NCBI GenBank assembly: GCA_013297985.1
Contig: JAAFIY010000006.1
Coordinates: forward strand, 1-64,000
Direction: 5' to 3'
DNA from: Comamonadaceae bacterium
GTDB taxonomy: Bacteria > Pseudomonadota > Gammaproteobacteria > Burkholderiales > Burkholderiaceae_C
DNA length: 64,000 bases
In this document: positions 7,080-60,408 of the stretch, in pieces
Numbering within the stretch: the first letter of the stretch is position 1
How the letters are laid out: each line of letters begins with the position of its first letter
Program-made: the position numbers and the translations under genes
The notes under the pieces: generated by a model
Databases searched by the model: none
Told to the model about the DNA's origin: nothing
What the model saw: only the letters and a program-made list of their open reading frames with translations

Positions 7080-7108
7080 GCTGGGCCGCCACCGGCACCG
7101 CTTAGGCT

Positions 7109-7172
7109 ATTTGCTACAAAAAACGTAGCTGCTTAGGCAGTTAAATAGGGCGCTGCAGCCCGATTTGTTTTA
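7109..7172 (+). repeat. Hairpin repeat, copy 1 (between convergent polA and lipoprotein genes)
   Basis: Contains the shared core TTGCTAC...GTAGCTGCTT followed by AGGCAG..ATAGGGCGC. GCTAC and GTAGC pair as a hairpin. It starts 29 bp after the polA stop. Confidence 0.8.
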
Positions 7173-10702: not shown

Positions 10703-10757
10703 CAGGCTTGGGGATGAGAGGGTGCCGTTAACTTCGCCAATGAACGGGGCTTAAAGG

Positions 10758-10816
10758 AAAAACGGCGCTTGCGCCCTAGGAATGGGCGTAAGCAGCTATA
10801 AAACATATAGCAATTG
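10758..10816 (-). repeat. Hairpin repeat, copy 2 (downstream of the Rieske oxygenase gene)
   Basis: Minus-strand orientation: TTGCTATATG...ATAGCTGCTTACGCCC then TAGGGCGCAAGCG. The second half is itself a hairpin (CTTGCGCCC against GGGCGTAAG, with a 7-nt loop). It begins about 25 bp after the Rieske gene stop. Confidence 0.85.
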
Positions 10817-10840
10817 CCGAGTGCGCTCGAGGTCAACAGC

Positions 10841-17008: not shown

Positions 17009-17046
17009 ATGAGCGGCTGACGGGTTGATGACTAAGTGCAAAAACC

Positions 17047-17100
17047 GGCCAATCCGCCCTAAAAAACGGCGTATGCAGCTATAAAAAATATAGCAATTGG
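17047..17100 (-). repeat. Hairpin repeat, copy 3 (between convergent TRAP genes)
   Basis: Minus-strand orientation: AATTGCTATATTTT..ATAGCTGCATACGCC then TTTAGGGCGG. It lies between the two opposing terminators. Confidence 0.8.
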
Positions 17101-21209: not shown

Positions 21210-21234
21210 GTCGTGAAGGCGCCGACCGCCAAGC

Positions 21235-21298
21235 CATTTGCTATTTGTTTGATAGCTGCTTAGGCTGATTTCAAAAGCGCGAAAGCCCTATTTGGCTT
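21235..21298 (+). repeat. Hairpin repeat, copy 4 (between convergent genes)
   Basis: TTGCTATTTGTTTGATAGC is the first hairpin, followed by TGCTTAGGCTG and AAAGCGCGAAAGCCC. It starts 26 bp after the SUMF1-family stop and ends 6 bp before the stop of the opposing EAL gene. Confidence 0.8.
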
Positions 21299-26315: not shown

Positions 26316-26344
26316 GCACACAGCGGTCATTTGAACGTAATGGG

Positions 26345-26396
26345 CCTGCAGCGCCCTTAAATATTGCCTAAGCAGCTACAAAAAAAGTAGCAACCA
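26345..26396 (-). repeat. Hairpin repeat, copy 5 (between coxS and coxL)
   Basis: Minus-strand orientation: GTTGCTACTTTTT..GTAGCTGCTTAGGC, then AAGGGCGCTGCAGGCCC. It begins about 30 bp after the coxS stop, inside an otherwise continuous operon. Confidence 0.85.
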
Positions 26397-26439
26397 CCAG
26401 TTTTGTTGACCTTGTTTGATTTCCGCAGGAGACCTTGAA

Positions 26440-29696: not shown

Positions 29697-29702
29697 GTCG
29701 GT

Positions 29703-29757
29703 CGCTACAAAAATAATAGCTGCTTGCGCTTATAAACAGGGCGCAATCGGCACTTTT
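29703..29757 (+). repeat. Hairpin repeat, copy 6 (between coxM and coxD)
   Basis: CGCTACAAAAATAATAGC forms an imperfect hairpin, followed by TGCTTGCGC and AGGGCGCAATCGGC. It follows immediately after the coxM terminator. Confidence 0.8.
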
Positions 29758-29774
29758 AGCTTGCAAGCATTTTC

Positions 29775-33072: not shown

Positions 33073-33087
33073 GGTTGAGGCGTAAAA

Positions 33088-33142
33088 ATGGCCACTGCGC
33101 CCATAAATAGGCCGTAAGCAGCTATTTATTTGATAGCAAACG
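33088..33142 (-). repeat. Hairpin repeat, copy 7 (downstream of coxI)
   Basis: Minus-strand orientation: TTTGCTATCAAATAAATAGC, then TGCTTACGGCC and ATGGGCGCAGTGGCC. It begins 16 bp after the coxI stop. Confidence 0.85.
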
Positions 33143-33191
33143 GTTTGTTTGAGTCCGTGTTGGCTTCCTCGGCGAGCTTGCGCACAGCGCC

Positions 33192-35542: not shown

Positions 35543-36663
35543 GCTTGCAAAGGAAATCGCACGATTGCGCTGATTCCACCGGCCGAACCAGCTACAAATT
35601 CAATAGCAACAAGGTGCGGGGCGATGTTCGGCTGGTGATAGTGGTGCTGCAGCCTTTCGCGCACCTGCGCTACGCCAAAGCCGGTGTCGCCTTGGCTCAG
35701 CAGCCGCTGCACGGCGGCCGCGTCGCCCACGCCAGTGTCAGCCACTTGCAGCACCAATTGGTTGCCTTCGCGCCGGGCGGACACCTCAACGCGCCCGCCC
35801 GCGTCGGCTGGTTCCAGGCCGTGCTTGATGGCGTTTTCCACCAGGGGCTGCAGCAGCAGCGGCAGCACCGGGTGGCTTTGCAGATCAGCCGGCAAATCGA
35901 GTTGGTAGGCCAAGCGTGGGCCCATGCGCACGGCCATTAGTTCCAGGTAGTCGCGCAGGCGGTCAAACTCCGCGCGCAGGGTGTGGGTGGCGGCGCTGCT
36001 GCGGCTGGCGGCTAGCGTGGCGCGCAAAAAGTCGTTGAGATGATCCAGCATGGTGGTGGCGCGCGCTGGGTCTACCGCAATCAAGGCCCGCAGATTGGCC
36101 AGCGTGTTAAACAGCATGTGCGGCTCGAGCTGGCTTTGCAGCAAGGTGAGCTGGGCTTGGGTGGCTTGGCGCTGGGCGGCTTCGGCGCGTTCGCGCAATG
36201 CAGCCATGCGCGACTGCCCGACAAAGTACACGCTGCCAAGCAGGCCGCTGAGCAGCGACAGCACCACCAGCCCACCGGCAAAGTCAGGCCGCTTGCTCCA
36301 AAACGACAAGGGGGCGCGGCCAAACAGCACATCGGCCAGACTGGTGCCCACCACCAGCCCCAGCATGACGCCAAACGCGCTGACCAACACCACTTGAATG
36401 GTCGGCAGATCGGCATCGGGCCGCTGCAGCAGCCGCAGGCCGCCTTCGATGAACAACCATATGCTGGTGCCGATGGCAAAGGAGTACACCGCACGCCGGT
36501 ACAGCGGATCAAACCCCATCATGAAGAATTCCAAGGCCAGCGTGATGACCAAGTTGAACGCCATCACGATCAGCCCACGGCGAAACCAGCCGCGCTGCCA
36601 CAGCGGCGTTTGGGGCGCGTCGGTGAGGGTGTGCATGGGCGTCAGTATGCCGATGGGGTTCAT
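35539..36663 (-). CDS. LytS/YehU-type sensor histidine kinase
   Basis: 374 aa. Four hydrophobic segments within residues 25-150 form a membrane sensor; the His_kinase domain has LQSQLEPHMLFNTLANL (His182) and the ATPase domain LVENAIKHGLEP and DTGFGVAQVRERL. It phosphorylates the LytTR regulator. The last 20 codons coincide with a copy of the hairpin repeat (35559-35611), giving VAIEFVAGSAGGIS just before the terminal FPLQA. Confidence 0.9.
   Translation of the reverse strand: MNPIGILTPMHTLTDAPQTPLWQRGWFRRGLIVMAFNLVITLALEFFMMGFDPLYRRAVYSFAIGTSIWLFIEGGLRLLQRPDADLPTIQVVLVSAFGVMLGLVVGTSLADVLFGRAPLSFWSKRPDFAGGLVVLSLLSGLLGSVYFVGQSRMAALRERAEAAQRQATQAQLTLLQSQLEPHMLFNTLANLRALIAVDPARATTMLDHLNDFLRATLAASRSSAATHTLRAEFDRLRDYLELMAVRMGPRLAYQLDLPADLQSHPVLPLLLQPLVENAIKHGLEPADAGGRVEVSARREGNQLVLQVADTGVGDAAAVQRLLSQGDTGFGVAQVRERLQHHYHQPNIAPHLVAIEFVAGSAGGISAIVRFPLQA
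35559..35611 (-). repeat. Hairpin repeat-like copy inside the histidine kinase gene
   Basis: On the coding strand, GTTGCTATTGAATTTGTAGC, then TGGTTCGGCC and AGCGCAATCG. Left and right parts both match the intergenic copies (the right end matches copy 6), but the C-terminal protein sequence is also near the family norm, so chance resemblance is possible. Confidence 0.5.
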
Positions 36664-43876: not shown

Positions 43877-45040
43877 TCAAGCCGTCAGGGTGGGCACGTC
43901 GATCCATCGCCGCTCCTTCCAGCTTTGCAAGGCCAGCTCCACCAACTGCACGCCCTTGGCGCCTTCGGTGAGATCCCAGCGATAAGGCGCGCCTTCCACC
44001 ACATGGCGAATGAAGAGCTCCCACTGAGTCTTAAAGCCGTTGTCAAACACCTGGTAGTCGGGCACCAACTGCCAGTGGTCAAAGAAGTTCATCGGCTGCT
44101 TGACGTCGGGGTTCCACACCGGTTTGGGCGTGTTTACTCGGGCTTGGCTGCGCACGTCGCTCAAGCCCGCAACGGCCGAGCCGTGCGTGCCATCAACATG
44201 AAAAGTCACCAAGTCATCGCGGCGCACCCGGGTGGTCCAGCTGCTATTGATTTGCGCAATCACAGGCTCACCGTTGTGGCCTTCGAGCTCAAAGGTGGCA
44301 TAGCAGGCGTCATCAGCGGTGGCGGCGTAGCGCCGGCCGGCTTCATCCAGCCGTTCAGGGATGTGGGTGGCGCCCAGGCACGAGATGGACTTCACCTTGC
44401 CAAAGCAGTTGTCCAGCACGTAGCGCCAGTGGCAGATCATGTCCAAGATGATGCCGCCGCCGTCTTGGGCGCGGTAGTTCCAGCTGGGGCGCTGGATGGG
44501 CTGCAAATCGCCTTCGAACACCCAGTAGCCAAACTCGCCGCGCACGCTGAGCATGCGGCCAAAAAAGCCGCTGCGCCGCATCAGGTCGAGCTTGAGCAAG
44601 CCGGGCAAAAACAGCTTGTCTTGCACCACGCCGTGCTTGATGCCCGCAGCCTTGGCGGCGGCCACCAGATCCATCGCTTCAGCCAGATTGGTAGCCACCG
44701 GCTTTTCGCAATAGATGTGCTTGCCCGCCGCAATGGCGCGCTTGAGCAAGGTGGGCCGCATCTGGGTGGTAGCGGCGTCAAAGAAGACGGTGTCGGAAGG
44801 GTTGGCCAGGGCCGCGTCAAGGTCGGTGGTCCAGCGCAAATTGCCGTGCGCTTTGGCTAAGGCCTCGATCTTGTCAGCGTTGCGGCCCACCAAGATGGGG
44901 TCCGGCATGACCCGATCGCCATTGGCCAACGCCACGCCGCCTTGATTGCGAATGGCGACGATAGATCGAACCAGGTGCTGATTGAGCCCCATGCGACCGG
45001 TCACGCCGTGCATGATGAGGCCCAGACGATGAATGGTCAT
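43877..45040 (-). CDS. Gfo/Idh/MocA-family oxidoreductase
   Basis: 387 aa from ATG 45040, overlapping the enolase-like gene by 4 bp. N-terminal Rossmann fold with the dinucleotide loop LIMHGVTGRMGLNQH, then HIYCEKPVATNLAEAMD (Lys of the EKP motif) and the C-terminal sheet domain. The active-site-like segment GGGIILDMICHWRYV carries Asp and His of the family D-x3-H pattern. These enzymes oxidise sugars or cyclitols at a hydroxyl with NAD(P). Confidence 0.88.
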   Translation of the reverse strand: MTIHRLGLIMHGVTGRMGLNQHLVRSIVAIRNQGGVALANGDRVMPDPILVGRNADKIEALAKAHGNLRWTTDLDAALANPSDTVFFDAATTQMRPTLLKRAIAAGKHIYCEKPVATNLAEAMDLVAAAKAAGIKHGVVQDKLFLPGLLKLDLMRRSGFFGRMLSVRGEFGYWVFEGDLQPIQRPSWNYRAQDGGGIILDMICHWRYVLDNCFGKVKSISCLGATHIPERLDEAGRRYAATADDACYATFELEGHNGEPVIAQINSSWTTRVRRDDLVTFHVDGTHGSAVAGLSDVRSQARVNTPKPVWNPDVKQPMNFFDHWQLVPDYQVFDNGFKTQWELFIRHVVEGAPYRWDLTEGAKGVQLVELALQSWKERRWIDVPTLTA

Positions 45041-50111: not shown

Positions 50112-52277
50112 ATGAAGCGTTCTGGCATTTTCAAAGTTGTGCTCACCCTGGCCATGGTGGCCGGGGTAGCGGGCAGCGGGTGGTGGTGGCAGCAGCGGGA
50201 TGACACCGATACGGCCAACTACCGCACCGGCAAAATTGAGCGGGGCACGCTGGCGGCCACGGTGTCGGCCAGCGGTGCAGTCAATCCGGTTTCTTTGGTG
50301 ACGGTGGGCACCCAGGTGTCGGGGCAAATCCGCGATTTGTTGGTGGATTTCAATACCGAAGTCAAAGCCGGGCAGTTGCTGGCGCAAATTGACCCTGAGA
50401 CCTTTGAATACCGGGTGCGCTCGGCCCAGGCAGATGTGGATTCGGCCCGCGCGGCGGTGCTGACATCGCAAGCCAACGCGCTAGCGGCACGCGCCAATGT
50501 GTCGCGTTCGCAAGCCGATGTGAACGAGGCCCGCCGCACCCACGACCGAAATGTGAGCCTGGTGGCGCAGAACTTCATTTCGCAAAGCGAAGCCGAACGC
50601 ACAGCCGCCGTGGTGATCCAAACCCAAGAAACGCTGCGCAGCATCCAAGCGCAGTTGCAGGTGGCCGAAGCACAGATCAAAACGGCCGAAGCCACTGTGG
50701 CCCAACGCCAAGCCACTTTGGCGCAGGCGCAGGTGGATTTAAGCCGCACCCGCATCGTCTCGCCCATCAATGGCATCGTGGTCAAACGCTCCATTGAGCG
50801 CGGCCAGACGGTGGCCGCCAGCTTGCAGGCACCTGAGCTGTTTGTGATTGCACAAAACCTGCAAGACATGCAGGTGGACGCCAGCGTGGACGAAGCCGAT
50901 GTGGGCCGTATCCGCACCGGCCAAAACGCCACCTTCACCATCGACGCTTTCCCCGGCCAAACCTTTGATGGCACGGTGCGCCAGGTGCGCAAAGCGGCGG
51001 TCAATGTGAACAACGTGGTGAGCTATGTGGTGGTGGTGGCGTTTTCCAACACCAGCGGGCGCTTGCTGCCGGGCATGACGGCCAACGTGCGGGTGGTCAC
51101 CGACCAGCGCGACAACGTGCTCAAGGTGCCCAATGCTGCCCTGCGGGTGCGCATTGCGGGCTTGGAACCCGAAAGCCTGCCCAACCCAGGATCGCCGCCG
51201 GGCGCAACACCGCCCGCGGCGGCACCTGCGACCGCACCGACAAATGGCCCCGCCGCAAGCCCGGCAGGGGCACCTGCTTCCGCTCCCGTCTCTACCCCAG
51301 CCTCCACCCCCCCGGCCACTTCCACCAGTTGGTTGCGCCAACTAGAGGCATGGCTGCCCAGTGCCCATGCGCAAACCCCACCGGGCGGGCAGATGGCGGC
51401 CATGCGCGACCGCTTAGTGGCTGATTTGCAATTGAGCCCAGCGCAGCAAACCAAGCTCGACCAGATCTTGGAGCAAATGCGCCCGCAGTTCGCCGCCCTG
51501 CGCGACATGAGCGACGAGCAGCGCGCCACCGAGCGCCCCAAGCTCATGGGCCAAATGCGTGAGCGCATCAACGCCATCTTGGAGCCAGCGCAGCGCGAGC
51601 ACTACGCGGCCATGCAAGCGCAGCGGGGCCCACAAGCCCGCACCGATGCGCCAGCGGGGGTTGCACCGTCCGCTACAAATTCTGTAGCTGCTTCGGCAGA
51701 TAAATCGGGCGGTACAGGCGCATCAGCCGCAAAACCCGCGGCCAGTGCCCGCGCAGCTGCCACGCCCATCGGCCCGCTCGCCAAGCCGCGTGAAGGCTCA
51801 GGCCCTGGGGTGGAATACCGCAACCGCCTGATCACCGAACTGCGCTTGACCGAAGAGCAAGCGGCCAAGGTGGACGATTTCTTTGCCGAAGCGCGCCCCA
51901 AGTTTGGCGCCCTGCGCGAACTGCCCGAAGAAGCCCGCCGCAAAGCGCGCGAAGCCATCATGGCCGACATCCGTGGCCGCATCAGCGATGTGCTGAGCGC
52001 CGAGCAAAAAACCCGCTTTGTCCAGATGCAGGCTGAGGCAGGCACGCGCCAGGTCACTCGCGGCCGCGTGCATGTGCTGGGCGCTGACAACAAACCCAAG
52101 GCCTATGCGGTGCGCTTAGGCATTACCGACGGCAACTTCACCGAACTGATCGTGCCGCCCGACAGTCCCGCAGGCCGCGTGCTGACAGAAGGCGCCACGG
52201 TGATCACGGGTGTACCTGCGGCGGCGGCTAGCAACAGGCCCGCAGGCGGCTCAGCCGCGCCGCGCCTGCCCTTCTGA
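50112..52277 (+). CDS. macA: MacA-like periplasmic adaptor with two Spy/CpxP-like modules
   Basis: 721 aa from ATG 50112, nearly twice the normal MacA length (about 370-390). Residues 8-26 are a membrane anchor; 55-98 and 210-255 form the lipoyl domain, 98-210 the helical hairpin, 250-345 the beta-barrel. Then comes an insertion of about 300 residues: a Pro/Ala linker (350-405), a helical module (about 428-505; LSPAQQTKLDQIL, LEPAQREHY), a second linker and a similar module (571-645; LTEEQAAKVDDFF, LSAEQKTRF). The membrane-proximal domain resumes at about 648-700 (VHVLGADNKPKAYAVRLGITDG). The L-T/S-x-x-Q pattern is that of Spy/CpxP. A hairpin repeat copy encodes residues 520-534. Confidence 0.85.
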   Translation: MKRSGIFKVVLTLAMVAGVAGSGWWWQQRDDTDTANYRTGKIERGTLAATVSASGAVNPVSLVTVGTQVSGQIRDLLVDFNTEVKAGQLLAQIDPETFEYRVRSAQADVDSARAAVLTSQANALAARANVSRSQADVNEARRTHDRNVSLVAQNFISQSEAERTAAVVIQTQETLRSIQAQLQVAEAQIKTAEATVAQRQATLAQAQVDLSRTRIVSPINGIVVKRSIERGQTVAASLQAPELFVIAQNLQDMQVDASVDEADVGRIRTGQNATFTIDAFPGQTFDGTVRQVRKAAVNVNNVVSYVVVVAFSNTSGRLLPGMTANVRVVTDQRDNVLKVPNAALRVRIAGLEPESLPNPGSPPGATPPAAAPATAPTNGPAASPAGAPASAPVSTPASTPPATSTSWLRQLEAWLPSAHAQTPPGGQMAAMRDRLVADLQLSPAQQTKLDQILEQMRPQFAALRDMSDEQRATERPKLMGQMRERINAILEPAQREHYAAMQAQRGPQARTDAPAGVAPSATNSVAASADKSGGTGASAAKPAASARAAATPIGPLAKPREGSGPGVEYRNRLITELRLTEEQAAKVDDFFAEARPKFGALRELPEEARRKAREAIMADIRGRISDVLSAEQKTRFVQMQAEAGTRQVTRGRVHVLGADNKPKAYAVRLGITDGNFTELIVPPDSPAGRVLTEGATVITGVPAAAASNRPAGGSAAPRLPF
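51671..51713 (+). repeat. Hairpin repeat copy inside macA
   Basis: CGCTACAAATTCTGTAGC then TGCTTCGGCAG and AATCGGGCGG closely follows intergenic copy 1. It is read in frame as ATNSVAASADKSGG in the linker between the two Spy-like modules. Confidence 0.8.
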
Positions 52278-54284: not shown

Positions 54285-54330
54285 GATAGCGGCCCGCGCC
54301 CATTTCTAGGGCGCAAGCGGCCGAAACGGC
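54275..54330 (+). repeat. Hairpin repeat, copy overlapping the permease stop codon
   Basis: GCTACGAATAAGATAGC overlaps the final Tyr-Glu-stop codons; CGCGCCC then TTTCTAGGGCGCAAGCGGCC matches copy 2 closely on the right. Confidence 0.75.
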
Positions 54331-57682: not shown

Positions 57683-60408
57683 GGCGGTGTCTGTTTTGAG
57701 TGTGAGGAATGTGGGGGCGGCAGCAGTGCTTTGAGCTCATACAGCGCGGCCAGGGCGTCGCGCGGGCTCATTTGATCGGGCTGCAAGGCTTGTAGCGCCT
57801 GCTGTAGGGCCGTGTGGGCCGTGGTTACAGCGGAGTCTGTGGCAGATTCTAGAGAGGCCTCAAGCGGCAGCGGTGCAAACAAATCCACCTGGGTTTGCTG
57901 GGCCTGGGCTTGTTGTTCCAAGGCGGCCAGGGTGCGGTTGGCTTGCTGCAGCACCGCTGCAGGCACGCCCGCAAGTCGCGCCACCTGAATGCCGTGGCTG
58001 CGGCTGGCGGGGCCGCTTTGGAGTTCGTGCAAAAACACAATGTCGCGGCCCGATTCCACCGCGCTCACATGGCGGTTCACTGCACCTGCGTGGCGGGCTG
58101 GGAATTCGGTGAGCTCAAAGTAGTGGGTGGCAAACAGAGTGAAGCACTGGCTGCGCTCGTGCAAATGGGTGGCAATCGCACCAGCGAGCGCCAGGCCGTC
58201 AAAGGTACTGGTGCCGCGGCCAATTTCGTCCATCAAGACTAAGGACTGCGGCGTGGCGGCACGCAAAATTTGCGCGGCCTCGACCATCTCCAACATAAAG
58301 GTGGACTGCGCATTGGCCAAATCGTCGGCCGCGCCAATGCGGGTGTGGATGGCGTCAACCGGCCCGATGCGCGCGGCGGCCGCGGGCACGTCAGACCCGA
58401 TGCAAGCCAACAACACGATCAGCGCCACTTGGCGCATGTAGGTGCTTTTACCGCCCATGTTGGGGCCGGTGATGACCTGGGTGCGTTCTTTGACTGACAG
58501 GCGGCAGTCATTGGGTACAAAAGGTGTGGGCGCGTCTGGCCGCTCTGCCAAGCGCTGCTCTACCACCGGGTGCCGGCCCAGTGAGATGTCAATGCAAGGC
58601 TCGCGCACCAGCGCTGGGCGACACCATTTGAGGGTGATGGACCGCTCCGCCAGCGTACACAGCACATCCAGCTGCGCCAGGGCCGTGGCAATGCGGGTGA
58701 GGGCGGGCACTTCGGCGGCGAGTTGGTCTAGCAGTTGCTCAAACAGCAGCCGTTCGCGTTGCAAGGCACGCTCTTGGGCCGACAGGGCCTTGTCTTCAAA
58801 GGCTTTGAGCTCGGGGGTGATGAAGCGCTCGGCGTTTTTCAGCGTTTGGCGGCGGCGGTAGTCGCTTGGCACGCGGGCCAATTGGCCGGTGGTGACCTCA
58901 ATGTAGAAGCCGTGCACCCGGTTGAACTGCACCCGCAGGTTGGCGATGCCAGTGCGTTCGCGTTCGCGTTGCTCCATGGCCAGCAAATAGGCGTCGCAGT
59001 CGCGGTCAATGGCGCGCAAATCGTCTAGTTCAGCATCAAAACCCGGCGCGATCACACCGCCGTCGCGCACCAGGGTGGCGGGGTCCTCCGCCAAAGCCGT
59101 GCCCAGAAGTGCGGCGGCCCGGCTGGGGGTGCGCAAGCCGTCGAAGATATGGACCAAAAGTGCCGATTCCGCCCTATTGGTGGGCGTAAGTAGCTCACAT
59201 TTTTGTAGCGTTTGGCGTAGAGCAGCCAGTTCGCGCGGGCGCACTTGGCGCAGGCTGATGCGGGCGCTGATGCGTTGCACATCGCACACGCCGCGCAGCC
59301 AGTCGCGCCAGTGATGCGTGGGCGCGTCGGCATGTCCGGTCTGCTTGAGGGTGGCGACTGCGTCTTGCCGGGCCAGGGCCAGGGTGCGGTCTCGCGGTGG
59401 TTCTAGCAGCCAGCTGCGCAGCAGTCGGCTGCCCATGCCGGTGCGGCAGGTGTCCAACAAGGACAGCAAAGTGGGCTGCGTTTCGCCGCGCAAGGTTTGG
59501 GTCAGCTCTAGGTTGCGCTGGGTGATGGCGGACAAGCCCACGGTGCTGTCGTCACGCACCACCTCCAACTGGTTCCAGTGCGACAGCGCGCGGCCTTGGG
59601 TGTGCTGGGCATAGGCCAGCAAGGCGGCAGCGGCGGCGTGGGCGGGCCCCAGGTGCTGGGCGCCGAAGCCTTCCAACGTGGCGGTTTGCAATTGTTCGCA
59701 CAACTGGCGTTGGCCCAGGGGCCCGTCAAATTGCCAAGCCGGACGGCGGGTGAGCACGCTGCGCGCCCCGGCGGTGGGCGAGCCAACCAGGGCTTGCAAG
59801 GTGCGCCAACGCGCATCGCTCAATGCATCGCTGGCGATGACTTCTTGAGCGCCAATTCGCTGCAACCAAGGGGGCAAATCGGCGGCGTCACATTGCGCCA
59901 AGCGCACGCTGGGCTGCAGCACGCTCATCCAGGCCAAGCCGTAGCTGCCGCCCTGCGCCCGCTCAGGCGCGGGGGCATGCAGCGCCAGCACCACCGCGTC
60001 GGCGCGCTCGGGCAGCAGTTCGGTGTCAGTGAGCGTGCCGGGGGTGACCACCCGCACCACTTTGCGATCAACCGGGCCCTTGGCATTGACTTCGCCAACC
60101 TGCTCGCAAATGGCGACGGATTCACCGGCGCGAATCAGCCGTGCGAGATAGGACTCCATGGAATGCGCGGGCACGCCCGCCATCACCACAGGCTTGCCCG
60201 CCGATTGGCCGCGCTGGGTGAGGGTGATGTCCAGCAAGGCAGCAGCGCGAACGGCGTCTTCAAAAAACAGTTCGTAGAAGTCGCCCATGCGGTAGAACAC
60301 CAAGGTCTGCGCATACCCAGCTTTCACGCTCAGGTATTGCTGCATCATTGGCGTGTGAGATTCGGGCGAGGTCAAAACGGGGTTTTCCAAAAACGACAGA
60401 GGCTGCAC
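57679..60408 (-). CDS. mutS: DNA mismatch repair protein MutS
   Basis: 909 aa (E. coli MutS has 853). Mismatch-binding [14 protein letters not shown] (Phe-x-Glu segment), lever and core domains, Walker [13 protein letters not shown] (about 646-657), [16 protein letters not shown] and the [23 protein letters not shown] end are intact. It recognises mispairs and recruits MutL. The start is uncertain: GTG 60408 is used, but TTG codons 20-40 bp downstream would also fit. Codons about 398-416 coincide with a hairpin repeat copy. It opens the operon mutS-Anbu-hydrolase-ParA. Confidence 0.96.
59161..59216 (-). repeat. Hairpin repeat copy inside mutS
   Basis: On the coding strand ACGCTACAAAAATGTGAGC, then TACTTACGCCC and AATAGGGCGGAATCGG. 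It keeps the frame and encodes [16 protein letters not shown], in the lever/core region of MutS. Confidence 0.78.

Follow-up and report, generated by a model that had tools for sequence, protein, structure and literature searches.

A REP-like palindromic repeat of about 60 bp has, very probably, entered the linker, predicted to be disordered, of a MacA-like protein and is now part of its reading frame. The stretch in macA is a member of a dispersed repeat family, has an open frame and rare codons, lies in the linker and recurs in orthologues, and a rule by which copies in genes keep largely to two reading frames is seen in three genomes. The original prediction, that a copied or mobile intergenic hairpin element had become protein-coding in macA as REP- and RPE-like elements do elsewhere, proved correct both for the copy and for the type of event, and is supported by the profile match, the codons and the orthologue linkers; we infer the mobility of the element and the direction from intergenic to coding DNA. 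In what follows, the window is the whole stretch of 64,000 nucleotides that was analysed, and positions are counted from its first letter.

The repeat copy inside macA

The macA-like ORF (50112..52277, plus strand, 721 aa) encodes, by its Pfam matches, an HlyD/CusB-type periplasmic adaptor (PF16576, PF13437) with C-terminal Spy/LTXXQ-like modules; its start codon is uncertain, the gene finder preferring 50139 over 50112. A first Spy-like helical module spans residues 428-504 (51393..51623; LTXXQ PF07813, E 7.7e-6; pLDDT about 90 in the AlphaFold model) and a second, placed by orthologue alignment and the same model, residues 565-645 (51804..52046), with a low-complexity linker between them (51624..51803), of which residues 506-553 are predicted at pLDDT under 50. 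The model was made from a 12-sequence input and has a mean pLDDT of 57.7, with poor barrels, the two helical modules (mostly pLDDT 84-94) standing out from its otherwise low confidence. Within this model of low overall confidence, the repeat lies in a linker predicted to be disordered, between the two Spy-like modules, which is where it had been placed beforehand; its 20 residues in MacA are most likely a neutral spacer between the modules.

The copy occupies 51666..51727 on the plus strand and reads, in frame +0, PSATNSVAASADKSGGTGAS (residues about 519-539 from the ATG at 50112). The bases originally reported, GCTACAAATTCTGTAGCTGCTTCGGCAGATAAATCGGGCGGT at 51672-51713, translated in the macA frame as ATNSVAASADKSGG, are correct, but the extent given with them, 51671-51713, is too short, the alignable unit being 62 nt. 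Comparison with the intergenic copy at 7107..7168 (plus strand) likewise agrees with the earlier reading: GTAGCTGCTT is identical, and CGGCAG replaces AGGCAG and TAAATCGGGCG replaces TAAATAGGGCG. Both A-to-C changes between the two copies convert an in-frame TAG to TCG.

Because the covariance model of the family had included the macA copy, an HMM was built from the 86 non-genic copies sampled in the own genome, with no in-gene copy among them; with this HMM the macA copy reaches 46.8 bits, at E=4.5e-13. A BLAST search with the 101-nt macA region finds 35 places in the own genome at E≤1e-3, itself included. The 14 codons in the repeat have a GC3 of 21%, versus 74% for macA, and a codon adaptation of 0.251 versus 0.619, a value reached or undercut in 0.17% of 18,149 windows of 14 codons each. 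Since these rare codons are those of the repeat, it is the DNA repeat that determines the residues, not the other way round, and convergence in macA is very unlikely; the stretch is a member of the dispersed ~60-bp family and not a chance resemblance. An Rfam search of the 64-kb window gave no match at gathering score, and a plasmid search with the copy at 7105-7170 gave none.

The repeat family in its own genome and in relatives

The core pattern GCTAYN7RTAGCTRCTTNSGC, with up to two mismatches, occurs at 580 places (283 + 297) in the 3.76-Mb genome, and the reversed-pattern control at five (3 + 2); a covariance model search finds at least 150 places. The own-genome consensus is about 60 bp long with roughly 40-45% G+C, and the constant palindrome of the element is GCTAY-N7-RTAGC, the 5-bp stem of which is itself part of the search pattern; past this stem, two inner loop pairs were tested and showed no excess pairing.

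The window holds 11 core-pattern places, macA included. Intergenic copies lie, besides that at 7107..7168, at 29698..29759 on the plus strand and at 10756..10817, 17039..17100, 26336..26397 and 33082..33143 on the minus strand; the copy at 21234..21295 (plus) partly overlaps a small predicted ORF, and that at 35552..35613 (minus) belongs to the 3' end of a histidine kinase gene, where it is read in frame +0. A repeat-like stretch in frame +1 inside mutS (domain III; 59154..59215, minus) shows no inserted block when set against the solved MutS 5yk4, and the place at 44369-44430 (two mismatches, frame +2) looks like a chance match. At 54286-54319, just downstream of the gene after the ATPase gene, the second half of the repeat is partly matched in inverted orientation; the core pattern misses this stretch.

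The own genome was sampled by 40 stretches of 20 kb together with the window, 864 kb in all, in which a small hexamer gene finder called 782 genes. This sample holds 125 copies, 56 of them intergenic, 30 partly overlapping genes and 39 inside genes. Two relatives, G030 and G034, were sampled at 400 kb each, the G030 stretches being picked where copies were already known, and gave 90 copies (22 in genes) and 81 copies (26 in genes), respectively. Across the three genomes, non-genic copies are scarce in divergent spacers (4/56, 5/47 and 3/37, versus 29%, 26% and 16% of spacer bases), weakly so in the third, and copies that partly overlap genes do so mostly at 3' ends (24/30, 17/20 and 15/18); with the reversed control, each genome has 5 to 8 places. 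The same pattern is found at 41 or more places in 12 of 35 other genomes of the bacterial family, and none of 24 genomes from other families of the order has more than seven. The repeat appears to belong to this bacterial family, which named orthologues indicate to be Comamonadaceae.

Two reading frames and a critical codon

With frames counted from the G of GCTAY, 77 of the 87 in-gene copies in the three genomes sit in two of the six reading frames, +0 and -0, namely 35 of 39 in the own genome (+0 15, -0 20, +1 2, +2 1, -2 1), 19 of 22 in G030 (+0 10, -0 9, +2 3) and 23 of 26 in G034 (-0 13, +0 10, -2 2, +1 1); overall, the two are used about equally in genes (35 versus 42). The two-frame shares expected from stop-free non-genic copies are 36%, 23% and 47% in the own genome, G030 and G034, so that the excess over stop avoidance has p values of 5.7e-12, 7.1e-10 and 1.1e-5. 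Read in +0 or -0, non-genic copies encode 38-48% Ala, Gly, Ser, Thr or Val and under 2.5% Cys. Frame -2 is the one most often free of stops in the own genome and G030, yet it is little used in genes; it has 7-8% Cys, and in the own genome and G034 its content of Ala, Gly, Ser, Thr and Val is about equal to that of frame -0. The off-frame in-gene copies (10/87) may include chance matches, and some of the in-gene matches with two mismatches may also be due to chance.

Frame +0 contains a stop in 68/86 non-genic copies of the own genome, 57/68 of G030 and 50/55 of G034, and the codon at +21 in non-genic copies is TAG in 34/86, TAG in 55/68 and TGA in 47/55, respectively. In genic +0 copies the same codon is TCG (8/15) or TCC (3/15) in the own genome, CAG (7/10) in G030 and TCA (6/10) or CCA (2/10) in G034; that genic copies lack a stop in the gene frame is given by the definition of gene calls, but the replacement base is not. 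At position 22, C is present in 12 of 15 genic versus 5 of 18 stop-free non-genic copies of the own genome (p 0.004) and in 8 of 10 versus 0 of 5 in G034 (p 0.007); in G030, C at position 21 is not enriched (7/10 genic versus 7/11 stop-free non-genic). The G034 genic allele, C at position 22, is absent from all 55 non-genic copies, and G030 has nine genic antisense-frame copies versus three stop-free non-genic ones; genic copies therefore cannot be treated as just a sample of the non-genic copies seen. A separate genic subfamily defined by overall identity was considered and rejected, identity within genic +0 copies being 0.539 in the own genome, versus 0.542 between genic and non-genic copies, and 0.621 versus 0.625 in G030; G034 shows a slight genic grouping (0.611 versus 0.578).

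The MacA linker across genera

Wherever it could be scored, the MacA linker is in step with the repeat of its own genus. A C-terminal query matched 71 of 399 family genomes at E≤1e-3, the own genome included, many by the last module only, and 26 two-module MacA rows were scored with repeat profiles. Nine of these, from five genera (the own genus g1; g35; g31, with four genomes; g88; and g137, with two) and the own row included, carry a copy in the same linker in frame +0. Four profiles were used, that of G136 from all 24 of its sampled copies and those of the own genome, G030 and G034 from non-genic copies, with no macA copy in any, and each gives its top raw bit score to the macA copy of the genus from which it was built: 58.3 versus 7.0-28.2 with the other profiles for the own genome, 46.9 versus 15.9-33.1 for G034, 41.2 versus -3.8 to 30.2 for G030 and 48.5 versus 10.0-22.6 for G136. 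The G030 profile is also the best for its congeners G180, G262 and G330 (59.0, 49.8 and 37.6, the last nearly tied with the 36.8 of the G136 profile), as is the G136 profile for its congener G230 (42.6), and G087, a genome without a profile of its own, scores best with that of the own genome (35.2). When the linkers of G030 and G034 were compared by BLAST with their own genomes, each had at least 40 matches, self included.

Fourteen of the 26 rows have no copy in the linker and, as judged by eye, also lack the residues, and in the eight orthologues with similar residues the linker DNA fits the repeat profiles, both as expected for a copied element that turned coding. Three further rows (L231, L229 and L228) are ambiguous: their genomes are nearly free of the family, yet their linkers are reminiscent of the repeat. 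With some profiles, two of the three score 3-6 sd above shuffles, again at this site and in this frame, and one does not, and the linkers of L231 (G073) and L229 (G086) are reminiscent at the same site although these genomes are almost without the family. Genome-wide, carriers have 55-850 places, the ambiguous genomes 5-11 and non-carriers, of which 7 of the 14 were counted, 1-4. A match of L029 with the own profile, 5 sd above shuffles, lies in a conserved module and not in the linker, and we read it as chance. An alignment of orthologues had been proposed as the way to see whether the 43 bp come and go as a block; no clean presence or absence is demonstrable in macA, because linker length varies freely, but clean extra blocks were found in some other hosts.

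Other host genes

macA is one of many genic copies of the family. Thirty-seven host proteins were scanned, a 32-aa one being omitted, and 34 have a Pfam match, one of them only to a short N_methyl motif. The hosts include UvrA, TruB, IF-2 and GuaA; in UvrA, RecQ, dihydrolipoamide dehydrogenase and E2 acyltransferase the copy has an interdomain position, and in TruB, RibD, PurK, EarP and others it falls inside the envelope of the family match. The 1054-aa DUF349 protein at L158:7392-10553 has two copies, one in each preferred frame.

When UvrA is aligned to 2r6f, a gap of ~24 residues falls where the copy lies, and clean extra blocks are present at the copies in UvrA, RibD, an RNase E/G family protein and IF-2; TruB has about 8 extra residues relative to 1r3f, and GuaA about 8 more than most of the family orthologues aligned, L199 and L215 being likewise longer there. 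Comparison of 20 element sites with an orthologue without a called copy gave at least 11 extra residues in 6 and fewer than 8 in 14, two of the latter being strongly negative, and 3% of random positions have 8 or more. The idea that every in-gene match is an insertion was rejected on the basis of these 14 sites and of the mutS match, which shows none; overwriting in place of insertion is possible for mutS. The own genome and G034 share copy sites in TruB and KDO transferase.

Origin of the macA copy

The repeat is most likely a REP-like element that copies itself, and its entry into the MacA linker can be understood if most landings in genes are lost; the survivors would be those read without a stop in one of two Ala/Ser/Thr-rich, Cys-poor frames, often in loops or linkers, and the element would be tolerated where it is read as a soft linker, as Rickettsia palindromic elements (RPEs) are. 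Simple insertion is not seen everywhere, because only 6 of the 20 compared sites show 11 or more extra residues. Ala/Ser/Thr-rich linkers are common in these proteins, but that chance or convergence produced the match is scarcely credible given its E value, the rare codons and the 14 orthologous linkers without the repeat. It is also improbable that MacA benefits from the element, for instance through a set spacing of the Spy-like modules or through an mRNA hairpin that slows translation between domains; presence in nine MacA genes and the predicted fold of the copy (MFE -20.5 kcal/mol, z -2.3, with 3 of 200 shuffles equally stable) would fit such a benefit, whereas the widely varying linker length among orthologues, the 14 rows without the repeat and the lack of excess inner pairing argue against it.

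The recurrence of the copy across genera may go back to one ancient insertion into the macA linker in an ancestor of these genera, followed by repeated overwriting with the version of the repeat found in each genome, either by short-patch gene conversion or by annealing of single strands of the element, while patches that brought in a stop were purged; we regard this as tenable, if short of probable. It would explain why the linker and frame are the same in 9/9 repeat-bearing MacA genes although two frames are used about equally overall, and it is consistent with the reminiscent same-site linkers of L231 and L229, with the shared sites in TruB and KDO transferase, and with a MacA tree built without the linker columns, which does not reject one clade of repeat-bearing macA (AU p=0.081, the window row being on a long branch). 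The same tree is, however, poorly resolved and requires at least three changes of carrier label, and overwriting requires putative conversion over about 60 bp of imperfect identity. Independent insertions, genus by genus, into the same permissive linker, with only the +0 frame kept, are a serious possibility that we would likewise not call the probable one: in the four genera for which a profile exists, no other subfamily fits the macA copy as well as that of the genus itself, four congeners agree, and the linker copy follows the presence of the family (found in the nine genomes with 55-850 places, absent from the seven two-module genomes with 1-4), but the frame would have to be the same every time, and reminiscent linkers occur in genomes nearly without the family.

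A coding-adapted branch, in which genic copies are more than fortunate landings of the spacer form and either derive from stop-free versions passing from gene to gene or are rewritten by them again and again, seems to us rather unlikely. It fits because the critical-codon alleles differ between genomes (TCG/TCC, CAG, TCA/CCA), because the G034 allele is found in 8/10 genic and 0/55 non-genic copies, and because MacA, TruB and KDO transferase carry copies at the same sites; genic copies of the own genome and G030 are overall no closer to each other than to non-genic copies, which speaks against a single young branch. If true, it would amount to concerted evolution, with orthologous linkers kept in step with each genome's non-coding repeat.

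With a repeat having entered the MacA linker as the preferred reading, the family offers, in a widespread bacterial group and with hundreds of copies in several genomes, a setting for studying how selfish DNA becomes protein; useful features include a clear rule for the two surviving frames, single-codon differences between spacer and coding copies, and sites in orthologues that can be traced from genus to genus. The family also carries a warning, in that linker residues common to Comamonadaceae proteins can stem from the repeat and not from shared function.

Relation to known repeats

In-frame palindromic repeats are already known from Rickettsia, Wolbachia and REP-bearing bacteria, and the present family is a new variety, no description of which was found in the open-access literature. 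The protein-coding palindromes of Wolbachia, known to us from the title of a reference, are reportedly comparable in-frame palindromic repeats. The RPEs of Rickettsia are, in the portions of PMC2229807 and PMC3733652 drawn on here, dispersed palindromic repeats that occur between genes and in frame within conserved genes, including truB, and the present copies share this twofold distribution. The RPE unit is described there as 105-146 bp, versus about 60 bp for the present repeat, with terminal inverted repeats of about 12 bp (PMC2229807); the present repeat, likened to RPEs by description only, differs further in its host family, its two preferred frames on opposite strands and its about 580 places. 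In the Correia/NEMIS repeats of Neisseria, as outlined in PMC2229807, coding-competent and stop-bearing forms are similarly split between genes and spacers, but differ by length (107 and 155 bp), whereas the present forms differ mainly by the base in one codon. The BREs (Beta-proteobacterial repeat elements) of Hot et al. (2011), dispersed in Bordetella and Comamonadaceae and with some copies wholly within CDS, are a possible relative, compared by description only; from what the consulted part of that paper gives (PMC3110155), those of Bordetella are 75-91 bp long with 69% G+C and some are tandem, versus ~60 bp and roughly 40-45% G+C here.

REP and GTAG-REP elements with RAYT share with the present repeat, as far as these sources describe them, high copy number, a small palindrome, rarity in divergent spacers and frequent overlap with gene 3' ends, and the relevant part of PMC3733652 describes uvrA, UvrD/recB-type, ligase and truB genes in other bacteria that contain REPs; the present repeat likewise has copies in uvrA, UvrD-type, ligase and truB genes. 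For truB of unrelated bacteria, the same part reports REPs or RPEs. GTAG-REPs have a constant GTAG tag at one end, whereas the present repeat mostly has ATAG, with A in 62/86, 65/68 and 45/55 non-genic copies of the three genomes. A search of the own genome for a mobilising enzyme of the repeat found none; a RAYT was rejected in that role, the sole Y1 transposase gene (PF01797, L191) being flanked by a different inverted repeat, and its 3.3-kb locus contains no copy of the repeat at three or fewer mismatches (genome 90% complete). This Y1-family, RAYT-like gene (L191:1389-2166) is flanked by an inverted repeat of the GGGGTC(A/T)GACCCC type and resembles the TIR-flanked kind presented in the section of PMC3733652 consulted.
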